This document shows, piece after piece, positions 285-62,910 of a DNA stretch of 64,000 nt. The translations under genes were made by a program, and so were the position numbers. Each line of letters begins with the position of its first letter. Within the stretch, counting starts at the first letter, position 1. The stretch is from Cellulomonas fengjieae (GTDB lineage: Bacteria; Actinomycetota; Actinomycetes; Actinomycetales; Cellulomonadaceae). The notes under the pieces were generated by a model, which did no database searches, was not told the DNA's origin, and saw only the letters and a list, made by a program, of their open reading frames with translations. Location: positions 3,925,909 through 3,989,908 of the forward strand of contig NZ_CP074404.1 of NCBI RefSeq assembly GCF_018388465.1, given 5' to 3'.

Positions 285-875
285 CTACCAGGGCCCGCTC
301 AGCTCGGGCGCGGGTGCTCGATCGAGGAGCCAGGCGAGGAGCTCGGCTCGGTCGGCCCGGTCGGGGAGAGCGCGGAGGCGCTTGGGCAGCTCGCCGTCGA
401 CGAACACCGACGGCCAGTCGGACGGTCGATGCCCGATGTCGAGATCCACGTGGTGGACCTCGACGTTCCGCAGGTGGTGCCCCACGATCTCGGCCATCGT
501 CCGCGGGCCGGCGGCCATGTGCCCCCGCCGGGTCCAGAGCGCATCGTCGAGCCCGGCCCACGCGGTCTCGAGAAGCCCGAAGCACTGGGCCAGCTCGGTG
601 CGGAGCTCGACGCCGGGGCGGGCCGCGCCCAGCTCCGCCGCCCGGTCCGGGTCGTACCCGTCAGGGTGGATCCTGCGCACCTCCCCGGCGACGGCGCCGT
701 CGAAGAGCAGCGCGTGCGCCTTCGCCTTGTTCACGACGTGCGCGACGACGTGTCCCCGCGAATAGCCGGGGAGCAGGCTCGGCGCGCGAAGGTCCTCCTC
801 GGTGAGCGACGCCAGGCGCTCCAGCAGGACCCGATGGCTCGTGTGGCACGCGTCGATGGTCGCGACCGGCTTCAT
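285..875 (-). CDS. Maleylpyruvate isomerase (MDMPI) family mycothiol-dependent enzyme
   Basis: This 196-residue protein has the DinB-like four-helix metal-binding fold of the MDMPI family. In actinobacteria these enzymes use the thiol mycothiol as cofactor, for isomerisation or conjugation reactions. The signatures seen are LLPGYSRGHVVAHVV (residues 34-48; His46 is the likely metal ligand) and LRNVEVHHVDLDIGH (135-149). Many homologues carry Glu where this protein has Asn137, so the metal site may be altered; that comparison is from memory. A TACCGT hexamer (882-887, minus strand) lies 6 bases before the ATG, suggesting a leaderless transcript. The specific substrate cannot be inferred. The presence of ino1 in this window, which feeds mycothiol synthesis, fits. 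Confidence 0.8.
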   Translation of the reverse strand: MKPVATIDACHTSHRVLLERLASLTEEDLRAPSLLPGYSRGHVVAHVVNKAKAHALLFDGAVAGEVRRIHPDGYDPDRAAELGAARPGVELRTELAQCFGLLETAWAGLDDALWTRRGHMAAGPRTMAEIVGHHLRNVEVHHVDLDIGHRPSDWPSVFVDGELPKRLRALPDRADRAELLAWLLDRAPAPELSGPW

Positions 876-971
876 CGGGCAACGGTAGCCACCAGGCTTC
901 GAGACGGGCCGTCATGGACAGCGCGATCGTGACGTCGACGATCCCCATCGCGGCGTCGTGCCGGCAAGGGC

Positions 972-21811: not shown

Positions 21812-23034
21812 GGTGCGTCGGCTCCGGGCGCGGCGGGAACGACCCGCGGAACAGGCACGCTCGCCCGGAGCAGGAACTCGTCGCCCAGCCTCTCGACCCG
21901 CAGCGACCCACCCGCGTCGGCGAGCCGCGCGGCCAGCCCGTCGAGCCCGGAGCTGTGCGCGTCCGCGACCCGGGTGTCGACGCCGTCGTTGCGGACGGTG
22001 AGCGTCGCGAACCCGCTGGCCGACGCGGCCGCGGCGCCGCCCTCAGGGTCGACCCTGACCTCGACGCGGCACCACGTGGCGCGGCTGTGCCGCAGCACGT
22101 TCGTCACCGCCTCGCGCAGCACGGGCGCGAGCCGGGCCGCGATGTCCGGCGGCACGTCGGCGGCCTCCCCGACGACCGTGCACCGCACACCCACCGAGTC
22201 GAGCACCTGGCGCACGGCCGCCACCTCTTCGTGCAGGTCGACCGAGCGGTAGGCGTGCACGGCCTGCCGGACCTCCGCGAGCGCCGTCGTCGCGAGCCGC
22301 TGGATCTGGGCGGCCTCGTCGCGCACGGCCGGGTCACCCGCAGGCAGGCGCACGACGAGCTCGGCCTTGAGCGCGATGACGGTGAGGCTGTGCCCGAGCA
22401 GGTCGTGCACGTCCCGGGCGAACCGCAGCCGCTCCTCCCCGGCCGCCAGGCGCGCGCGGGCGTCGCGGCCGGCGTCGGCGTCGAGCAGCAGCGCCCACAT
22501 CCACACCGGCGCCCAGTTGACGGCCGCGACGAACAAGCCGATCCCACCCGTCACCACGAGCGCCTGCACGGGCGATCCCCCGACCGCCCCGGCCACCACC
22601 ACGCTCACCGCGGCGCAGACCGACGCCACGACGACGACCCACCGCCACGTCACGAGCAGCGGTGCGATGCCGACGACGCCCGCGCCGACCCACGCCCACG
22701 TGGCCCACCGCCCGCCCGCGACCGGCCCCACGAGCGCGACGGACGCCACGGTCGTCAGGACGAGGGCGAGGGTCCACGCCCGCCGGGTCCCGGCCGGCGT
22801 CCACGGCGTCACCGCCCCGTGCACCGCGCCCGCCGACGCCACCGTGACCGCGACGATCCCCAGCGCGCCCAGGGCGACCCACAGCGGTCGCGGCTCGTCG
22901 GCCAGTCCGAGGCCGGGCATCACGAGGCTCGTGCACACCGTCGTCGCCAGCCACACGAGGACGAGCGCCCGCGCACGACCCAGCCGTCGGTCGCGCGGGG
23001 CGGCCGCCCACGGCAACGCTGCGACGGTGTTCAC
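21808..23034 (-). CDS. DesK-type sensor histidine kinase
   Basis: A 408-residue membrane kinase with about five to six transmembrane segments in the first 190 residues. A HisKA_3 domain has RFARDVHDLLGHSLTVIALK (the His is the phospho-acceptor). The ATPase domain has LREAVTNVLRHSRAT and LTVRNDGVDTR. The GTG at 23034 is chosen because TAGCAT (23042-23047, minus) lies 7 bases upstream and no ribosome site is visible. It forms an operon with the response regulator. The divergent membrane protein gene to its right may be its target. Confidence 0.9.
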   Translation of the reverse strand: MNTVAALPWAAAPRDRRLGRARALVLVWLATTVCTSLVMPGLGLADEPRPLWVALGALGIVAVTVASAGAVHGAVTPWTPAGTRRAWTLALVLTTVASVALVGPVAGGRWATWAWVGAGVVGIAPLLVTWRWVVVVASVCAAVSVVVAGAVGGSPVQALVVTGGIGLFVAAVNWAPVWMWALLLDADAGRDARARLAAGEERLRFARDVHDLLGHSLTVIALKAELVVRLPAGDPAVRDEAAQIQRLATTALAEVRQAVHAYRSVDLHEEVAAVRQVLDSVGVRCTVVGEAADVPPDIAARLAPVLREAVTNVLRHSRATWCRVEVRVDPEGGAAAASASGFATLTVRNDGVDTRVADAHSSGLDGLAARLADAGGSLRVERLGDEFLLRASVPVPRVVPAAPGADAP

Positions 23035-53954: not shown

Positions 53955-55157
53955 TCAGTTCTTGAGCAGGCCCGGGTCCTCGGGGGCCAGGCTCGCCAGG
54001 ATGCGGTTCAGGTCCTGGACGGACGCGAACTCGACGGTCAGCCGTCCGCGCGACTTGCCCAGGCTCACCTTGACGCGGGTCTCGAAACGATCCGAGAGCC
54101 GTGCCGCCAGGTGATCGAGCGCCTCGTTCTTGACGCCCGCGCGGGGGGCAGCCCGACGAGCCGACGAAGACCCGTCGCCGCCGAGCGACACGATCTCCTC
54201 GACCGCTCGCACCGAGAGACCCTCCGCCACGATGCGCTGGGCCAGGCGCTCGATGGCCGCGCCGTCGTTCAGGCCGAGCAGGGCACGGGCGTGTCCCGCG
54301 GACAGGACGCCCGCCGCCACGCGGCGCTGCACCAGGGGCGGGAGCCGGAGCAGTCGCAGCGTGTTCGAGATCTGCGGCCGCGAACGGTGGATGCGCGTGG
54401 CCAGCTCCTCGTGCGTGCAGCCGAAGTCGTCGAGCAGCTGCTGGTACGCGGCGGCCTCCTCGAGCGGGTTCAGCTGCGAGCGGTGCAGGTTCTCGAGCAG
54501 CGCGTCACGCAGCAGGTCCGAGTCGTCCGTGTCCCGGATGATCGCGGGGATCGACTCCAGGCCCGCCGCCTGCGTGGCACGCCACCGCCGCTCGCCCATG
54601 ATCAGCTCGTAGCCGTCGCCGGTGTCGCGCACGACGATGGGCTGCAGGACGCCGACCTCGCGGATCGAGCCCACGAGCTCGTCGAGAGCGTCCTCGTCGA
54701 AGACGGACCGCGGCTGCTTCGGGTTCGGCCGGATGTCGCCCACCGGCAGCTCCGCGAAGCGGGCGCCAGGAACCGGGAGCAGTCCGTCCGACGGCTCGTC
54801 GTTGGCAGGGGTCGCCGGCTGCGCGGCTTCCGGCGCCACCACGGCCGCCGGCGCGTCCGTGGTCCCGGGCGTCTCGTCCACCCGGCGCGCCTCGTCGACC
54901 ACCACCCCGACGGCCTTGGCGTCCGGCTGCACCGGCGCGCCGAGCGCGCCGTCCGGCGTCGACTCCGCGGCCGGCCGCTCCTCGGTCACCGTCGCCGCCG
55001 CGGCTGCCGCCGCAGCCGCAGCCGCAGCACCGTTGCCTCGATTGTCGGGGAAGAACACGTCCACAGGCCGCTCTGCCCCCGTGGGGCGCTGGCCGTCCAG
55101 CCCGGTCGGGATCAGGGCACCCAGGCCCTTGCCCAGCCCGCGTCGCTTCTCTACCAC
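53955..55157 (-). CDS. parB: Chromosome-partitioning protein ParB
   Basis: A 400-residue CTP-dependent DNA clamp that loads at parS and spreads. The first 130 residues are a basic then Ala/Val-rich linker. ParB/Sulfiredoxin domain about 135-230: [20 protein letters not shown], the CTP-binding [12 protein letters not shown], then [20 protein letters not shown]. The helix-turn-helix ([20 protein letters not shown]) reads parS. The C-terminal dimer domain ends [18 protein letters not shown]. It overlaps the parA stop by seven bases and lies beside ten parS sites in this window. Confidence 0.97.
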
Positions 55158-56977
55158 TGTTCCTCCTGCAGGACCGGCGCAGCCGCCTGGTTCTCGTGGG
55201 TCGCGTTCCGGGCATCGCCGTCGGCCGGCGCCCCGTCGGTGTAGTCGTCTCGCATCTCGACGGCGCCGCGCTCGGCCACCTCACGCGCGGCCTCGAGGTA
55301 GGCCAGCGCGCCGGACGAGCCGGGGTCGTACGTCATCACGGTCTGGCCGTAGCTCGGCGCCTCGGAGATCCGCACCGAGCGCGGGACGGTCGTGCGCAGC
55401 GTCCGCTCCGGGAAGTGCGTGCGCACCTCGGTCGCCACCTGCTGCGCCAGATTCGTCCGGGCGTCATACATGGTCAGCAGGATGGTCGAGACGTGCAGCC
55501 GCGGGTTGAGGTGCGCCTGGATCAGCTGGATGGTCTTCAGCAGCTGGCTCAGCCCTTCCAGCGCGTAGTACTCGCACTGGATCGGGATCAGCACCTCACG
55601 CGCCACCACGAAAGCGTTGACGGTCAGCAACCCGAGGCTCGGCGGGCAGTCGACCAGCACGTAGTCCATGCGCTCCTGGCCGTTGGCGACGCGCCACTCC
55701 AGGTAGGTGTCGAGCGCGTTCCGCAGTCGAGTCTCGCGGGCGACCATCGAGACCAGCTCGATCTCGGCGCCCGACAGGTCGATCGTCGCGGGCAGGCACC
55801 ACAGGTTGGGGACGTCCGGGCTCTGCTGCACCGCCTCCGCAAGCGGGGCACCGTCGACGAGCACCTCGTAGATCGACGGCGTACCCGCACGGTGCTCGAC
55901 GCCCAAGGCGGTCGACGCGTTCCCCTGCGGGTCGTTGTCGAGGACGAGGACGTTCAGTCCTGCCTGGGCCAGCGCGGCCGCCAGGTTGACGGTCGTGGTC
56001 GTCTTGCCCACGCCGCCCTTCTGGTTCGCCACCGTGATCACCCGCGTCTGCGGGGGCCGGGGGAAGCGGCGACCGCGCAGCTCGATGCGGCGCCGCGCGT
56101 CCTGCTGGAGCTGCGCCATGAGCGGTGTGTCATCCGTGACCGCCGGCAGGCTCTCGACCAGCGCTGCGCGACGGCTCTCGTCGGGGTCAAGATCGTGACG
56201 CTGAGCCATGGGCGAGATGGTGTCACGCGATCCCCCACCCGCACCGCCGCTGGCGTCGCTCGCGGTCTTCGTTTCGATCACATTGCTCGCCGCGGAGATG
56301 TTCCCCGCATCGCGGGCGTCACCGTCGTCGCGTCCAGCGGCGCTCTGACCAGCGGTGACGCCGCCCGCAGAATCGCGTGCGGTTGTCGATCCGTCAGGCG
56401 CCTCGCGCTCTGTTTCACGTGAAACGGTCTCGCCCAACCCTGCCTCGCCGCCGACGGCGGGACGCGCGGATCGTTGATCCGCGCCTCGGGACGGATCGGT
56501 CGTTTCACGTGAAACGCCCTCACCGATGACGCGGTCTGTGGCGGGCACAAGGTGAGCGAACCGGCGGTCACCTGCGTCGTCCGGACCGCCCGCCGTTTCA
56601 CGTGAAACGGTGCCGTCGAGTCCTTCGGCGGGCAGGGCGTGCGCGGCCCGGGGGTCGCCCGCGGGCGAAACTGGAGAGGTCGAGGCGGCGATCGGCAGGT
56701 CGTGTGCCGCGCTTGCGTCGGGCGTCGTGTGGAGCACACGGGCGCCACCGAAGGGGTCACCGGTCGGTGTCCCCTGCTCTGTCACACCCTCCGCACGGGG
56801 CGCAGTCGGTGGCGTCACCGCCGCCACATCGGCTCGGTCGGGCTCGGGAGCCCACCCCCCGGGATTCGGCTGGACCGTCGTACCCGGCCCGACGGGCTGC
56901 TCGACTGCTGCCGGCTGCCCTTCCGGCGCCTGCTGGGCGGCCAGCTGCTCGTCGCGACGCTTCTTCCTACCGAACAC
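55151..56977 (-). CDS. parA: Chromosome-partitioning ATPase ParA, N-terminally extended
   Basis: A 608-residue deviant-Walker ATPase that segregates ParB-parS complexes. The catalytic part (about 310-590) has [51 protein letters not shown] and [17 protein letters not shown]. Residues 1-255 are a Gly/Ala/Pro/Thr-rich disordered extension with three VSRET peptides (124, 155, 185), each encoded by a parS site. GTG 56977 overlaps the rsmG end by 11 bases. The alternative start ATG 56209 would give a standard 352-residue ParA with no parS. The 256 codons without a stop favour the long form; expression of it is not certain. Confidence 0.92.
56412..56425. other. parS: parS site 1 (inside parA)
   Basis: GTTTCACGTGAAAC, a perfect parS core palindrome. 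On the minus strand it reads in frame as VSRET, codons 185-189 of long ParA. Confidence 0.95.
56502..56515. other. parS: parS site 2 (inside parA)
   Basis: GTTTCACGTGAAAC, 90 bases from site 1; encodes VSRET at ParA residues 155-159. Confidence 0.95.
56595..56608. other. parS: parS site 3 (inside parA)
   Basis: GTTTCACGTGAAAC, 93 bases from site 2; encodes VSRET at ParA residues 124-128. Confidence 0.95.
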
Positions 56978-57644
56978 CAGGAACTGCCTCTCGTACGACG
57001 CGGACCACCCTCGTCACCTCGACCCCCTCGATCGTCGGCGCGTCCAGGACCGACGCCGTCCCCGCACCGAGCTTGCGCCCGACGTGCTTGGCCGCCTCGA
57101 TCTCCTCTTCCGCCTTGGCGCCCTTGAGCGCCACCAGCTGCCCGCCGCGCACCAGGAGCGGCATCGCCCAGCGGTACAGCTTGTCCAGCGACGCGACTGC
57201 ACGGACCGTGACGGCGTCGCCGGTCAACCTGCCGTGCTCGTCCTGGGCGCGACCGCGCCGGACCACCACGTTGTCGAGCTTGAGCGTGTCGGCCACCTCG
57301 CTGAGCCAGTCGGTGCGACGCTCCATCGGCTCCAGGAGCACCACCTCGACGTCCGGCAGCATCGCCGCGACCACGATTCCGGGTAGGCCGGCCCCGCTGC
57401 CCAGGTCGATGACCCGGCCCTGCGTGGGCAGGAAGGGCACCACGGCGGCAGAGTTCAGCAAGTGCCGCTCCCACAGGCGGGCGAGCTCGCGCGGGCCGAC
57501 CAGTCCTCTGAGCTCGCCCTGGTCGACGAGCAGATCATGGAACGCCGAGACTCTCGGCCACGCCGAGCCGAAGTACTCGGGAAGGCGTTCGTCGCCGTCC
57601 AGCGGGTCCGCTCGATCGGTCTCGGCCGACTGAGCTTCCGTCAC
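56967..57644 (-). CDS. rsmG: 16S rRNA (guanine527-N7)-methyltransferase RsmG
   Basis: A 225-residue methyltransferase of the 16S rRNA 530 loop (GidB). Seen: YFGSAWPRVSAFHDLLVDQG, RELARLWERHLLNSAAVVPF, then the SAM site VIDLGSGAGLPGIVVAAMLP and VEVVLLEPMERRTDWLSEV. The GTG at 57644 gives the usual length; a longer reading to 57716 would run through a parS site. Its 3' end overlaps parA by 11 bases. Normally jag is a close upstream neighbour, but here about 3.6 kb lies between them. Confidence 0.95.
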   Translation of the reverse strand: MTEAQSAETDRADPLDGDERLPEYFGSAWPRVSAFHDLLVDQGELRGLVGPRELARLWERHLLNSAAVVPFLPTQGRVIDLGSGAGLPGIVVAAMLPDVEVVLLEPMERRTDWLSEVADTLKLDNVVVRRGRAQDEHGRLTGDAVTVRAVASLDKLYRWAMPLLVRGGQLVALKGAKAEEEIEAAKHVGRKLGAGTASVLDAPTIEGVEVTRVVRVVREAVPGVR

Positions 57645-57658
57645 TGTGGGGCCCCCTG

Positions 57659-57672
57659 GTTTCACGTGAAAC
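57659..57672. other. parS: parS site 4 (just upstream of rsmG)
   Basis: GTTTCACGTGAAAC, 15 bases before the rsmG GTG, so it lies in the leader or promoter of the rsmG-parA-parB operon. ParB loading here could repress its own operon. Confidence 0.95.
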
Positions 57673-58649
57673 GCGTTGCACTTGCGACTGCGCGCGCCAG
57701 CCGGGTCCACCGCCACAGGTGGCTCGCTCGGCGTCGCGCGGCCCTACCGTACCGTGCTGCGGCGGCGTTCCTCGTGCGTCCACACCGCTACATCTCGGGT
57801 CTCTCGACTGGTGGTATCGGGACCGTCCATCGCCGTGTGCGTAAGCACACGTTCGCGCCCAAGGTGGCCTCGGCGCGTGCGTGACCTGCAGATACGGGTC
57901 TACGGTCGCCGGCGGGTGGCACGAGGCGGGGTAGGACTTCTCACACTCCGCGCGGGCGCGCGTGGTCTCGGCACGGTGGACGTGGACCGTTCGGGAACCG
58001 AAGTGCCCCGGCCGCGGTTCGGGAAGCCGACGCCCGCGCGTAAGTGACGGCGCCGACCCGGCCCTCGTGGACGAGCGGCACATCCGCCCTCGGCCGCCAC
58101 ATTCCCGCAGACGTTGGCATGATCGGGACGCCGAACAGGGCTCCCGTGCGCGTGGGGAATCCCATCGCAACGCGGGACAGCCCACGCGCGTTCCGGATAG
58201 CGCATGTGCCCCTTCGGATCGACGTGGCAGGGCGTGTGCTGACTCGGCTTGCCGGCACGCCGGCCCGCGCGCGGCCAGAGACCCGCCAGCCGGCGACGAA
58301 TCATCGGTGCTGCATGGTGCGCTCAAGCCTCGCGCCGTGCTGCTTGCCCTCCTGCGTTACGGGTCGCGATCTGAGCGTGAGGCGTCGGGCTGACTCGTTC
58401 GACGTGGTCCCGCGTGCGTATGCGTGGTCCTCCCCCCGGCGGTACGAGGAGCTCGGCGGCCGCGGCCGCAGCGTGGGGCCAGGCCGACATCATGAAGCAA
58501 CCTCAGTCGGCCGCCTTACCTGCTCGAACCCTGGCCGCATCCGCTGCCAGCCTCGCCCGCGGACACCCCGGCGCGCCAAGCCTGGCCGCGACGGCCCGCC
58601 GTCGAATGCTCGTGCCGACAGGGCGAGGCAACTCACGGCGGACGGTGTC

Positions 58650-58663
58650 GTTTCACGTGAAAC
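58650..58663. other. parS: parS site 5
   Basis: GTTTCACGTGAAAC in the gene-free stretch, 991 bases from site 4. Confidence 0.95.
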
Positions 58664-59111
58664 ACGCTTAGGCCCTCCGCCACGGGTGAACCTGACGAAG
58701 CGCGCCTTCCAGCCGAACAGCCGGCGCAACGGCCAGTGAATCGGTCGCGGCCGAGCACCAGAGCTATTCGCGTGTCCCTCGCGGGCGTGCGCCGTATGCT
58801 CCGCCGTCCTCGACCGAGCCCCGGGCACCCCTAGCTCGCGATGTCTGTGTGACGGGGAGCGCGCTCGACCGCTTGCGCCGCACGGGCGGCACTGCGGTCC
58901 GCTGCGGGCGGCTGGGTCCTCGTGTGTTGGCGCCTCGTCGCCGGGTAGGCAGTCCTCCGGTTCCGGCGACTGCGCCGAAAGGCCGTTGCCACTTGAGCCC
59001 GGGAGGCCCTCCGCGCGCGGTGGAAGAGTCAACGGCCGCCCGCGGCAGGAGAATCCGAAAGAGCGACGCGGCGGCGTGACGTTCAGAGCCTGCGCGGCGG
59101 GCGCTCAGGGG

Positions 59112-59340
59112 GTCGAGCCGCTCGGCCGTCAGGCCGCAAGCGCGTCCGGCCGCGAGCCGTCAGGCCGTCGGGTCGGGGGCCATCCGGTCCTGAGTCGCGA
59201 GCCATCAGGGGCCGAGCCGCTCGGCCGTCAGGCCGCAAGCGTGTCGGGCCGCGAGCCGTCAGGCCGCCGAGCCCTCGGGGCAATCCGGTCCAGAGTCCCG
59301 AGCCGTCAGGGGTCGAGCCGTTTGGCCATGAGGCCGTCCG
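59112..59340. repeat. Degenerate tandem repeat, about 100-base unit, 2.3 copies
   Basis: Units begin with GTCGAGCCGCTCGGCCGTCA at 59112, GCCGAGCCGCTCGGCCGTCA at 59211 and GTCGAGCCGTTTGGCCATGA at 59312. The shorter motif GAGCCGTCAGG recurs within the units. Most changes are substitutions, so this is an old duplication. It lies between parS sites 5 and 6. Confidence 0.75.
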
Positions 59341-59424
59341 GGCCACAAATCGTCAGGCCGTCACGCCGAGAGAGTGCCGGCAACCCGCGGCCGCTGACAA
59401 TGAACCTTCGCGACCGTGAGTCCT

Positions 59425-59438
59425 GTTCCACGTGAAAC
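59425..59438. other. parS: parS site 6 (one mismatch)
   Basis: GTTCCACGTGAAAC: a T-to-C change in the left arm, otherwise exact; flanked by T and A as in the 16-base consensus. Confidence 0.85.
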
Positions 59439-59868
59439 ATCGCCGGCGCCAGTCGTTCAGTCCCGCCGGTCGGCGGTCCCCTATCGCGACGCCGCCACGG
59501 CATCGAGCTGTTCGTCTGCACTCCGCGACCGCCGAACTGTCCAGACCAGTCCAGCGACAGTCCTGTCACGCGAAGGTCGCGTGCCAACTGCGCCAACCCC
59601 GTCGGTAGCACCTCGCACCACGACCCCATGTTGAAGCGATCGCTCTTCTCGACCGCGCGACCTCCTGACCTCCCGAGCGCCCGCGCCTCGCAGGGTTCGC
59701 AATCGACGCGTCGCCTATCCATCAGAATCGACGCGGGCGGCACCGTTGCTTCCGCCTGCAGAGCCGGACCTTTGATCGCCCGCACGTCGACGCCGTCCGT
59801 CAGGCTGCCCGGGCGCGGGACGCCCGGACGGTGCCGGACACCGCGTAGGCGCGCTAGGTATGCTTCTC

Positions 59869-59882
59869 GTTTCACGTGAAAC
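59869..59882. other. parS: parS site 7
   Basis: GTTTCACGTGAAAC, 444 bases from site 6. Confidence 0.95.
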
Positions 59883-60276
59883 GGGTCCGCGCCATCGGTT
59901 GGCCTTTCGTCGCTTAGTCCCAATCCCCTGCGACGCAGCGCGGGGACGGATACCGACGCCGCCGGTCCACGAATCCCCGCAGAATGGCTCCTGCAGAAGA
60001 CACAAGGCCGGGATGAGCCTGCGTGAGGTCAACCGCACCCGCCTTCCCTAGCCAGAACCGGTGCGAACTCGGGCACCGACTTTCCCGCGGCGCCGCTCCC
60101 GTTCCGAGCGCTGCAAAATCGCCCGTGCAGGGGCGGCTCGCGTCAACGGCGAACGTCACGCTGCCGAAGCGAGCCTAACCAGCCGACGGGAGGGCGGACG
60201 AGGACGACTGACCCCACTGTCTGCCGACTCCATCCTCGCTCGGACGCGGTCATACTGCCGCGACCGTGGTGGGCGC

Positions 60277-60290
60277 GTTTCACGTGAAAC
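60277..60290. other. parS: parS site 8
   Basis: GTTTCACGTGAAAC, 408 bases from site 7. Confidence 0.95.
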
Positions 60291-60440
60291 GGTGAAGGGG
60301 CAACTGCGCCTCGCAGGACACTCAACTGGCGACACACTCCGCGGGCACGGCTACGGGTCGGGAGAGGTGGGCCGTACCCGAAGCTTCGCTCGCACGGAAG
60401 GAGCCACACATCTGCGAGCACGGCGAGAGTCCCGGACGCC

Positions 60441-60563
60441 CCGGGCATTCCATCGCTCGACACTCGATGCCCGAACTCGAAGGCCAAGTCCGGAAGCCTA
60501 AGAGGTCCGGGCGTCCCACCGCTCGAGGTCCGATGCCCGAAGCCGAAGCTCAAATCCGAAGCC
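60441..60563. repeat. Degenerate direct repeat, 66-base period
   Basis: A 57-58-base unit starting CCGGGCATTCCATCGCTCGA (60441) recurs as CCGGGCGTCCCACCGCTCGA (60507); both share GATGCCCGAA and end in AAGCC. About four of five positions match. It lies between parS sites 8 and 9. Confidence 0.7.
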
Positions 60564-60616
60564 CAGGGGATCACCCCGCTCTGACGCGCCGAGGCACGAG
60601 GCGCCCCGACGAGCGA

Positions 60617-60630
60617 GTTTCACGTGAAAC
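60617..60630. other. parS: parS site 9
   Basis: GTTTCACGTGAAAC, 340 bases from site 8. Confidence 0.95.
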
Positions 60631-61223
60631 AAGGCGCCCGCTTTGCCGCCTCGGCGCCGGCGCAGAGGCTCCAACTACTCACATCGCGCACCCTGTGTCA
60701 TCGTCGGCACCGGTGCGAAGGGGGCCGATCACCGTCGACACATCCGACCGGTTGCCCGGCCTTCACCCGCCCTCACCACCTGTCCCGGAGCCGCCTTCGC
60801 TTTGCGTCCGCCCTGCCGCCTGTCGTTCTCACACGCGAGCGCCTGTAGGACTGCCCCAGTATCCGCAGCGCGCTGCCCGCCGGCGCGCACGAGAGCGTCC
60901 AGACCGCCTGGCCGATAGGCCGAGTACACCCGGACTGGCGCCGTCGCGCTCTACCTGCGGGGACCGGGAACACGGGCTTCCGGCGAACGACGCCACGGGA
61001 ACTGCCCTGCTCGACCGCAAGTGTGCCCGCACGCGCTAGTGGGTAACGCCGCCGCCGCCAACGTGCGACGTGCGGGGGCCGCAGGCTGAGCGTGCGTGCC
61101 GACGCGCATACGCACGACGCCCGCCGCCCGAGCAGAAGGCCGAAGTGGATGCCCCGGCCGGTGTCGCCTGGATCTCGGTGCGCCGACTAGAGCGGCATGT
61201 CCGCGGCGAGGGCGATACCAGTC

Positions 61224-61237
61224 GTTTCACGTGAAAC
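61224..61237. other. parS: parS site 10 (at the jag terminator)
   Basis: GTTTCACGTGAAAC, right-most copy, abutting the U-run of the jag terminator. Confidence 0.95.
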
Positions 61238-61242
61238 GAAAA

Positions 61243-61266
61243 GGGGTGAGCCCGTAGGCCCACCCC
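61243..61266 (-). terminator. Intrinsic terminator of the rpmH-rnpA-yidD-yidC-jag operon
   Basis: GGGGTGAGCC (61243-61252) pairs with GGCCCACCCC (61257-61266) with one mismatch; on the minus strand a TTTT run follows. It lies 16 bases after the jag stop and directly beside parS site 10. Confidence 0.85.
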
Positions 61267-61282
61267 TCTTCGCACGGTCAGA

Positions 61283-61798
61283 TCACGCGGGACGAATCAC
61301 CACGTGCCGGTTGGGCTCGACGCCGTCGGAGTCGCTCGACATCCCGGCGGCCGCCACGGCGTCGTGGACCACCTTGCGCTCGAACGGGTTCATGGCATCG
61401 AGTGCCACCGCCGCGCCGGACTCCTTGACGCGAGCGATCGCCTCCTCGGCGACGGCCACCAGCTCGGCCCGACGACCGGCCCGGTACCCGGCGACGTCCA
61501 GCATGAGACGGCTCCGTTCGCCGGTCTTGGCCTGGACGGCAAGGCGGGTGAGCTCCTGGAGAGCGTCGAGGACCTCGCCGTCGTGTCCCGCCAACCGCGA
61601 CAGCGAACGATCTGCCGGGTCCTCCGAGACGATCTCGACCGCGGCGCGGCCGTGATCGATGTCGATGTCGATGTCGCCATCGAGGTCAGCGATGTCGAGA
61701 AGCTCCTCGAGGTAATCGGCTGCGATCTCGCCCTCTTCTTCGAGGCGCTTCAAACCGGTCGCCTCAACAGGAGCGGCGTCAGGCTGGGTCGACGTCAT
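61283..61798 (-). CDS. jag: KH/R3H RNA-binding protein Jag (KhpB)
   Basis: A 171-residue RNA-binding protein. The KH-like part (about 25-95) has DYLEELLDIADLDGDIDIDI and RLAGHDGEVLDALQELTRLA. The R3H domain (110-165) has VAEEAIARVKESGAAVALD and MNPFERKVVHDAVAAAG. In other bacteria KhpB works with KhpA on wall-related transcripts; its gene follows yidC. The ATG at 61798 follows GAGAGGG. It is the last gene of the rpmH-to-jag operon. Confidence 0.95.
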   Translation of the reverse strand: MTSTQPDAAPVEATGLKRLEEEGEIAADYLEELLDIADLDGDIDIDIDHGRAAVEIVSEDPADRSLSRLAGHDGEVLDALQELTRLAVQAKTGERSRLMLDVAGYRAGRRAELVAVAEEAIARVKESGAAVALDAMNPFERKVVHDAVAAAGMSSDSDGVEPNRHVVIRPA

Positions 61799-61833
61799 GG
61801 AGTCCCTCTCCGAATCATCATCACGCGGGGGCA

Positions 61834-62910
61834 CTACTTCTTGGGCCTGGTGGGGCGGGCCGGCGGCGGGGTCACGGGACCGTCGGTGTCGCCGTCCTTC
61901 GGTGTGCTCGAGGGCGCGCTCGGAGGGGTGCCGGGCTGAGTGTTCGGGCCCTCGGTTCCGGGCCGCGGCTTTGCGCGGTCCTTACGCTTGGGCTGGACGC
62001 GCTGCCCACGCGGCTTCTCCTCGATGACCGCCGTCGTCGGAGCCTCCTCGATCACTCCCTGCGGCTTGGCCTTCTTCGCCTTGCGCGCCTTCATGGCGAG
62101 CTCGGCCTGCGAGCCGGGGGCCGGCATGCGGCGGATCGTGTAGAACTGCTGGCCCATCGACCAGAGGTTCGTGGTGGTCCAGTAGATGAGGACACCGATG
62201 GGGAAGTTCACGCCCGAGAATGCGAACACCAGGGGGAGCACGTACAGCAGGACCTTCTGCTGCTGTGCCATCGGGCCCTGGAGTGCGGCCGGCGGCATGT
62301 TCTTCATCGTGAGCTGGCGCTGCGTGAGGAACGTCGTCGCGGACATCGCGATGATCAGGACGACGGTGACGACCTGGATGTGCCAGTTACCGTCGGCACG
62401 CATGAACGTTCCGGACAGCGGAGCGCCGAACAGCGTGGCGTTCTCCGCCTGCCCCGCCAGGTCGGCGCTGAGCGGACCGATCGGGGGATAGCTGCCGTTC
62501 GCGATCCGGGGGAGCTCGATGAGCACCCGGAAGAGCGCGAAGAAGATGGGGGACTGCAGCAGGATCGGCAGGCAGGACGCGAACGGGTTGGTCCCGTGCT
62601 CCTTGTAGAGAGCCATCGTCTCGCGGCTCATCGCCTCACGGGAGGCGGGGTCGGTCTTGCCCTTGTACTTCTTCTGGATCGCCTGCATCTGCGGAGCGAT
62701 CAGCTGCATCCCGCGGGACGCCTTGATCTGGCGGAAGAAGAGCGGGATCAGTGCGATCCGGATGACGATCACCAGCCCGACGATGGACAGCGACCACGCC
62801 GCACCGCCCTCGGGGTCGAGCCCGATGGCCGTGAACAAGGAGTGGAACTGGACCATGATCCAGGCCACGGCGATCATGATCGGTTTGAGCAGACCGTCGA
62901 ACCAGTCCAT
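61834..62910 (-). CDS. yidC: Membrane protein insertase YidC/Oxa1
   Basis: A 358-residue insertase that folds membrane proteins with or without SecYEG. There are about five TM segments, starting IMIAVAWIMVQFHSLFTAIG, then WSLSIVGLVIVIRIALIPLF with the conserved positively charged Arg in the groove. Also seen: MQAIQKKYKGKTDPASREAM (coiled loop), LPILLQSPIFFALFRVLIEL, and LPLVFAFSGVNFPIGVLIYW. A long basic tail (KKAKPQ..PKRKDRAKPRPG) probably touches ribosomes. The large periplasmic P1 domain of proteobacteria is absent, as normal for Gram-positives. Confidence 0.97.
   Translation of the reverse strand: MDWFDGLLKPIMIAVAWIMVQFHSLFTAIGLDPEGGAAWSLSIVGLVIVIRIALIPLFFRQIKASRGMQLIAPQMQAIQKKYKGKTDPASREAMSRETMALYKEHGTNPFASCLPILLQSPIFFALFRVLIELPRIANGSYPPIGPLSADLAGQAENATLFGAPLSGTFMRADGNWHIQVVTVVLIIAMSATTFLTQRQLTMKNMPPAALQGPMAQQQKVLLYVLPLVFAFSGVNFPIGVLIYWTTTNLWSMGQQFYTIRRMPAPGSQAELAMKARKAKKAKPQGVIEEAPTTAVIEEKPRGQRVQPKRKDRAKPRPGTEGPNTQPGTPPSAPSSTPKDGDTDGPVTPPPARPTRPKK

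Follow-up and report, generated by a model that had tools for sequence, protein, structure and literature searches.

A gene-free block with clustered parS sites between rsmG and jag in Cellulomonas fengjieae, a putative chromosomal centromere

Introduction

Dense clusters of parS sites are already known from Myxococcus and Corynebacterium. Among the closest likenesses to the locus analysed here is Corynebacterium glutamicum, for which the accessible part of PMC7083940 describes ten parS sites on one side of oriC, nine of them intergenic, and demonstrates loading of ParB and SMC at the cluster. The C. glutamicum sites differ in being spread over 35 kb at a distance of 73 kb from oriC, and a single gene-free block is not mentioned in that part of the paper. 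In Streptomyces venezuelae, parS sites near oriC are likewise bound by ParB together with SMC, according to the accessible part of PMC12511625; there are 16–17 of them. The parABS locus of Myxococcus xanthus (PMC3778016, seen in part) belongs to another phylum. Here we compare with these systems a locus of Cellulomonas fengjieae in a window of 64,000 nucleotides, meaning the whole stretch of DNA analysed. Coordinates are window positions, and where no strand is named none was assigned.

Results

A first-pass annotation had reported ten parS sites in positions 56412–61237, and all of them were recovered: nine exact copies of GTTTCACGTGAAAC and one single-mismatch copy, GTTCCACGTGAAAC. The jag–rsmG gap holds seven of them; the other three fall within the frame of parA.

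56412..56425, parS, exact; in the parA tail, reads VSRET
56502..56515, parS, exact; in the parA tail, reads VSRET
56595..56608, parS, exact; in the parA tail, reads VSRET
57659..57672, parS, exact; roughly 15 bp upstream from rsmG by the start assigned here, an edge position recurrent in the genus
58650..58663, parS, exact; from the site search
59425..59438, single-mismatch parS, GTTCCACGTGAAAC; relatives often have this form
59869..59882, parS, exact; from the site search
60277..60290, parS, exact; from the site search
60617..60630, parS, exact; from the site search
61224..61237, parS, exact; 46 bp past the jag stop, an edge position recurrent in the genus

With up to three mismatches allowed, the window has 10 matches, where shuffles give an expectation of 0.92, and no exact parS arose in 2000 first-order Markov copies of the gap. 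The whole 3.99-Mb genome holds no further site at 0–1 mismatch. The wider pattern GTTYCACGTGRAAC adds two sites, both GTTCCACGTGGAAC, which in chromosome numbering lie at 22.7 and 71.5 kb; 10 of the 12 genomic sites of this form thus fall in 4.8 kb. The ten parS are clustered as in a ParABS centromere, 2.8–7.6 kb from the end of the chromosome numbering, and DnaA-like boxes at 179, 191 and 1808 in the first 8 kb of the chromosome suggest that oriC lies near its start. We rejected the block itself as a replication origin, as the window contains no DnaA-like box.

The genes at and beside the block are as follows.

61283..61834, minus strand, jag/khpB; R3H domain PF01424 above the cut-off, KH domain PF13083 below it
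56967..57644, minus strand, rsmG; PF02527 (GidB), start codon assigned by eye
55151..56977, minus strand, parA; PF13614 from residue 311
about 56021–56977, minus strand, variable N-terminal tail of parA, about 300 residues; three parS, frame open in most relatives
53955..55157, minus strand, parB; PF02195, PF17762, PF23552

Both flanking genes, jag (R3H) and rsmG (GidB), are intact, as had been claimed, and the block adjoins parA and parB. An intact ParA ATPase and a ParB with N domain, HTH and C domain stand beside the parS sites; judged by its sequence, the locus is securely a ParABS system. The idea that the parA tail is non-coding was rejected, since 58 of 60 genomes (all but G013 and G050) have an uninterrupted ParA frame between rsmG and the P-loop; in long-tailed genomes the open tail frame has about 250–545 codons. 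Among parS sites in the open parA frame, 101 of 114 begin on a codon boundary, mainly reading V-S/P-R-E/G-T, in a count that may include parS over the rsmG 3' end. The three parA-frame sites of the window were counted against a gene-free platform. Altered ParB specificity in genome G073 was also considered and rejected: its HTH region resembles that of its relatives.

Between the two flanking genes the window has the following features.

57645..61282, gene-free block from the rsmG start to the jag stop; 3638 bp, seven parS
58693..58727, plus strand, 35 bp similar to the beginning of rpmH; a weak match, the same E-value being reached by 1 of 20 shuffles
59089..59336, degenerate tandem duplication; absent from relatives' gaps in gap-to-gap comparison
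59781..59836, 56-bp fragment with 93% identity to part of an acetyltransferase-like gene (name given by eye) that this genome has at 1.94 Mb; E 1.8e-16
61237..61272, minus strand, hairpin followed by a U-rich stretch, a probable jag terminator, at the block edge

The 3.6-kb gene-free stretch said to split rsmG from jag withstood analysis, as these 3638 bp carry no coding signature. The non-coding run in the gap is, at 3570 bp, the longest in the 744 kb examined, where the second longest has 810 bp, so parS sites do lie here within a non-coding run of at least 1 kb. GC frame amplitude is 0.088 in the gap, 0.076 in the shuffled gap and 0.39 in the 27.6 kb upstream. The longest open frames of the gap (247 codons) are no longer than chance, an Rfam search of the gap gave no match, and neither did a Pfam search of ten of its ORFs at E 0.1. 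The jag-side hairpin (61-nt fold, −35.9 kcal/mol, z −6.6) was not listed by a simple terminator scan. Degenerate tandem repeats had also been noted; they are present (about 59.09–59.34 kb), but are hardly part of a platform, because no copy was found in the relatives' gaps.

The block is not special to this organism, contrary to what the first-pass annotation had implied. Among 63 same-genus genomes with rsmG and jag on one contig, the gap spans 0.05–5.8 kb with 0–9 sites of GTTYCACGTGRAAC form; it exceeds 1 kb in 55 of them (median of the gap 2.9 kb), and the long and short states changed four times in all on the tree. The edge positions recur: of the 55 gaps, 30 have a parS no more than 100 bp from rsmG, against 9.2 expected, and 28 have one no more than 150 bp from jag, against 13.3 expected. 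Gap length follows the number of parS in the gap (rho 0.75; phylogenetic contrasts r 0.37, P 0.003), and by contrasts it is not correlated with the locus-wide parS count (r 0.17, P 0.19). Helical phasing of the sites was rejected (245 spacings, Rayleigh P about 0.33), as was orientation bias of asymmetric parS (P 0.20 over 30 genomes with three or more). Some long gaps hold coding-like pieces, because 300-bp windows with frame amplitude above 0.3 occur in 13 of the 55. The gap is below 1 kb in 8 of 63 genomes, and for six of these (G039, G007, G064, G061, G028, G048) the limited stretches seen hold no gene-free block elsewhere.

Gap DNA between the parS sites is poorly conserved among relatives. 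The window's gap can be aligned to others only over about 115 bp before rsmG, the jag edge and short pieces, and in tblastx between gaps the matches listed are all short and scattered. Global alignment scores exceeded the null in 11 of 11 gap pairs tried, so some homology persists, and what is small is just the fraction that aligns locally; in the closest pair (G046/G069) 92% of the gap is alignable. In the closer informative pairs gap DNA diverges faster than nearby synonymous sites. The neutral expectation in this comparison varies with indels and with the chance identity that is assumed (0.40 or 0.48): at the harshest settings it nears the observed values for G024/G040 and G079/G059, and is 0.30 against 0.05 observed for G010/G003. 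Support for faster turnover thus comes from G077/G072, G022/G065 and G067/G069 and, less firmly, from G010/G003.

Gene fragments were found in the gaps of all three genomes tried (G000, G017, G015). As a block-specific feature they were rejected, since other low-periodicity stretches of the genome also match elsewhere (8 hits of 30–120 bp in 4 of 138 stretches, 40 kb, of the same genome). When the 54 other gaps were compared with part of this genome, 26 hits were obtained against 8 for Markov and 13 for reversed controls. We claim no enrichment of fragments, because the control stretches match too and the excess over controls is small.

Outside the genus rsmG and jag do mostly lie close, as had been stated: 62 non-Cellulomonas loci have a median gap of 79 bp, and 8 of them exceed 500 bp. 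That parS is elsewhere scattered among genes is true of the Streptomycetaceae and Nocardioidaceae examined, with 0 of 76 sites (18 loci) and 0 of 39 (15 loci), respectively, in long non-coding runs (low-periodicity run of at least 1 kb). It does not apply to Georgenia and Occultella. Some short-gap lineages have a gene-free parS block on the far side of rsmG: 2.6 kb with 4 of 5 parS in G013, about 2.6 kb with 4 parS in G026, and 1.8–2.7 kb with 6–10 parS in two Georgenia and two Occultella. Hence the block is not tied to the rsmG–jag junction.

Discussion

We consider it probable that the block is a chromosomal ParABS centromere built as a compact platform without genes on which ParB would load and slide. 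The ten parS would be the loading points of ParB-CTP dimers, which would close into clamps and slide along the gene-free DNA, bridging it into a compact complex that would be passed on to ParA and SMC. A transcript-free stretch behind the probable jag terminator would leave few roadblocks on the clamp track and keep ParB away from essential genes. If clamps need such a clear track, selection would keep parS number and emptiness while the filler drifts. On stretched DNA in vitro, one-dimensional ParB diffusion is halted by roadblocks, which ParB can also pass in trans (both in the accessible part of PMC9242446); the latter makes an empty track less necessary. It also counts against a platform that in C. 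glutamicum a single parS suffices for wild-type-like growth, according to the accessible part of PMC7083940.

A close rival, to which we give somewhat less than an even chance, holds that the emptiness is passive. ParB loading at clustered parS would silence or disfavour nearby genes, which would therefore disappear or fail to become established; the empty DNA would be tolerated junk without a function, and only parS would be selected. The accessible part of PMC7022226 points this way, with P. aeruginosa ParB repressing promoters beside parS3/4. So do the poor conservation between parS, the divergence of close pairs beyond synonymous sites, a gap length not tracked by all-locus parS number, and ordinary-gene fragments in gaps. 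On the other hand, the second longest run in 744 kb has less than a quarter of this length, blocks are found on the other side of rsmG too, and most of the genus has kept a long gap although useless DNA tends to be lost from bacterial genomes. That a gene, a small protein or a non-coding RNA was overlooked in the gap seems very improbable to us: the window's gap does have many ORFs of 130–263 aa, and in relatives 3 of 55 gaps contain, between them, four ORFs whose coding signature is strong (by a cut-off stricter than the values reached by jag and parA themselves), but ORF lengths are chance-like without frame signal, Rfam gave no match and neither did Pfam for ten ORFs, and little of the gap aligns to others. 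We give hardly any credence to a decayed mobile element or an assembly artefact. Draft contigs of 11 relatives re-read do stop 0.6–3.6 kb from rsmG on the jag-facing side, and a transposase-like ORF (name given by eye) adjoins the G026 block; yet the block is present in single-contig genomes, its own included, different species' gaps share scant DNA, and the ten ORFs lack Pfam matches.

Beyond the platform itself, we propose only tentatively, and with more doubt than belief, a regional bacterial centromere in Cellulomonas and several related Micrococcales. It would be multi-kb and transcript-free, defined not by sequence but by its emptiness and its number of parS, quickly renewed (partly by captured gene fragments) and placed on either side of rsmG with its function kept. 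Eukaryotic regional centromeres retain function while their DNA sequence is quick to change. The parallel is an analogy only, as the Cellulomonas block differs by a conserved sequence-specific site, parS; still, it could be a bacterial case of fast-evolving centromeric DNA with stable function. How far ParB spreading requires transcription-free DNA could be approached by comparison or gap filling, since the 63 genomes vary in gap and parS and the side of the block differs.

When intact parS were masked and gap edges trimmed, the top enriched 9-, 10- and 12-base words in the 55 gaps (167 kb) were parS-like. A small number of GC-rich words likewise surpass the Markov null, ACCGGGCACC occurring in 9 genomes against 0.6 expected, and the gaps may carry other weakly conserved elements besides parS.

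Results

All ten parS positions proposed by the first-pass annotation were borne out by a site search of the window, and a genome-wide search found them to be the sole copies at 0–1 mismatch in the single-contig 3.99-Mb genome. Two outlying GTTCCACGTGGAAC sequences at positions 22718 and 71502 of the same contig, past the numbering origin at which the window ends, are possible additional parS sites. The neighbouring genes each match their Pfam family:

53955–55157, parB
55151–56977, parA
56967–57644, rsmG
61283–61834, jag

Seven of the ten sites lie in the 3638-bp interval between rsmG and jag. GC frame amplitude, a 3-periodicity measure of coding character, is 0.088 in this gap as compared to 0.076 in the shuffled gap and 0.39 in the 27.6 kb upstream. 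Within 744 kb of the genome including the window (about 19%), no run lacking frame signal is longer than the one in the gap (3570 bp); the two runners-up measure 810 bp each, and one of these is the tail region of parA, where three parS lie. ORF lengths in the gap are at chance level, and neither an Rfam match in the gap nor a Pfam match for ten of its ORFs was found.

The same-genus set comprised 81 Cellulomonas genomes including that of C. fengjieae (handles G0xx below), with jag found in 76 and rsmG in 79. In the 63 genomes carrying both on one contig the gap has a median of 2868 bp and a maximum of 5818 bp, and exceeds 1 kb in 55. In 11 drafts with the two genes on separate contigs, re-read out of the 18 genomes that lack a joined pair, the contig ends 0.6–3.6 kb from rsmG on the jag-facing side, in most cases with parS in between. 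Mean frame signal is low in the 55 long gaps, yet some 300-bp windows exceed 0.3 in 13 of them. No more than four ORFs, from three genomes, showed a strong coding signature; jag (0.21) and parA (0.20) themselves score below the cut-off of 0.25, so real genes can have been missed. Gap length correlates with parS number in the gap (rho 0.75; contrasts r 0.37, P 0.003), and not with all parS of the locus (contrasts r 0.17, P 0.19). In G078 (locus L107) a gene apparently landed inside the block: the gap holds an ORF resembling, by eye, a FAS1-domain protein, and a 593-bp stretch 78% identical to window 300–892.

Sites are also placed at the block edges. Among the 55 site-bearing gaps longer than 1 kb, 30 have their last parS no more than 100 bp from rsmG, where uniform placement predicts 9.2, and 28 have their first no more than 150 bp from jag, where 13.3 is predicted. 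In the window, one site is 15 bp upstream of the start codon assigned to rsmG here. At the other edge, a 61-nt stretch has a folding energy of −35.9 kcal/mol (z −6.6); its hairpin, with UUUUCGUUU after it, is located between the stop codon of jag and the nearest parS, and the jag transcript probably terminates at this edge; the hairpin is absent from the output of a consensus terminator scan.

The filler between sites is poorly conserved and turns over fast in several close pairs. The window's gap is matched by five other gaps at E 1e-5, each covering at most 3.1% of it. Eighteen close pairs were compared, more distant ones being uninformative. In the closest, G046/G069 (fourfold identity 0.87), 92% of the gap is alignable. 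In G077/G072, with flanking-gene fourfold-degenerate sites 75% identical, only 6% aligned as compared to 85–100% in neutral simulations. The aligned fraction was likewise 0.19 for G022/G065 (expected 0.96–1.00) and 0.28 for G067/G069 (0.70–0.99); G010/G003 (0.05, expected 0.30–0.99) mostly fits the same pattern. Global alignment still detects weak homology. With intact parS masked and edges trimmed by 70/140 bp, the top enriched 9-, 10- and 12-base words of the 55 gaps resemble parS and represent incomplete or altered copies of it. A few GC-rich words also rise above the first-order null, but less strongly. The window's gap contains a 56-bp piece 93% identical to part of a gene at 1.94 Mb that by eye resembles an acetyltransferase gene (E 1.8e-16), and a 35-bp piece weakly resembling the rpmH start. 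In the G017 and G015 gaps, 53–63-bp pieces are 87–89% identical to coding-signature ORFs elsewhere in their own genomes. Since controls gave similar short matches in other low-periodicity DNA, these pieces only suggest where the filler may have come from and are no special feature of the block.

Outside the genus, 80 named loci were fetched by jag, overlapping with the 81-genome set; both genes are present in 75 (13 labelled Cellulomonas, 62 others). The claim that rsmG and jag are normally close held for the 62, where the median gap is 79 bp. Eight of these gaps exceed 500 bp: six are non-coding by periodicity (Pengzhenrongella, two Actinotalea, Luteimicrobium, Flavimobilis, Paraoerskovia) and those of both Nocardioides are coding-like.

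parS within low-periodicity runs of at least 1 kb (73 of the 75 named loci)
Cellulomonas: 73/95
Other Cellulomonas-related genera: 32/90
Georgenia/Occultella and others: 40/62
Nocardioidaceae: 0/39
Streptomycetaceae: 0/76

Long and short gaps are separated by four changes on the tree of Jag, RsmG, YidC and ParB. The short-gap pair G013/G026 has a gene-free parS block downstream of rsmG: in G013 it measures 2606 bp and contains 4 of the 5 sites, and in G026 it follows one gene, spans about 2.6 kb and contains 4. The six remaining short-gap Cellulomonas have none within the stretches seen. Among eight named loci chosen for a long rsmG–parA distance, two Georgenia, two Occultella and one MAG have a jag–rsmG gap of just 44–108 bp and 1.4–2.7 kb of non-coding DNA with 4–10 parS from rsmG to the ParA frame. 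Weaker cases are Actinotalea solisilvae (664 bp, 3 of 7 sites) and Puerhibacterium (1157 bp, 3 of 6); the stretch in Ruaniaceae KH17 (1007 bp, 2 of 5) appears partly coding. As some short-gap lineages show the block past rsmG, the recurring unit is the gene-free parS block and not the jag–rsmG junction; some lineages lack one.

Discussion

According to the excerpts cited, ParB loads at parS and slides as a clamp, its one-dimensional diffusion being halted by DNA-bound roadblocks with passage in trans possible (PMC9242446); it recruits SMC (PMC7083940) and is capable of repressing parS-adjacent promoters (PMC7022226). Judged from sequence, the Cellulomonas block is likely to be a gene-free ParB platform: most parS would be placed in transcript-free DNA, which may favour ParB sliding or spare genes. 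A passive desert made by ParB itself accounts for the sequence data almost as well. It fits less easily with two observations, that the block recurs on either side of rsmG and that the gap persists, and for these reasons the balance is modestly toward the platform.

Dense clustering of parS around parAB and the origin has precedents: the excerpts cited give 24 parS with such a cluster in M. xanthus (PMC3778016) and ten parS in 35 kb in C. glutamicum (PMC7083940). No earlier description of such a gene-free block was met among the titles and abstract beginnings listed from open-licence papers.

The parA N-terminal tail is long and variable (window 56021–56977 and relatives). In the interval from the rsmG stop to the P-loop, 46 of the 60 genomes with parA have 1–5 parS, mostly in the ParA frame, and 13, all with a short ParA, have none. 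Exact GTTTCACGTGAAAC is missing from 26 of the 81 genomes; 25 of these possess variants in which position 4 of at least one half-site is C, and ParB HTH is similar in those inspected. G073 (L108, C1:3430788-3433376) has no GTTYCACGTGRAAC at all and five GTTTCACGGGAAAC, all on one strand and found only there among the 81 genomes; its ParB HTH region nevertheless resembles that of relatives. One half-site of GTTTCACGGGAAAC has C at position 6, as Noc binding sites do in the excerpt cited (PMC7383237).
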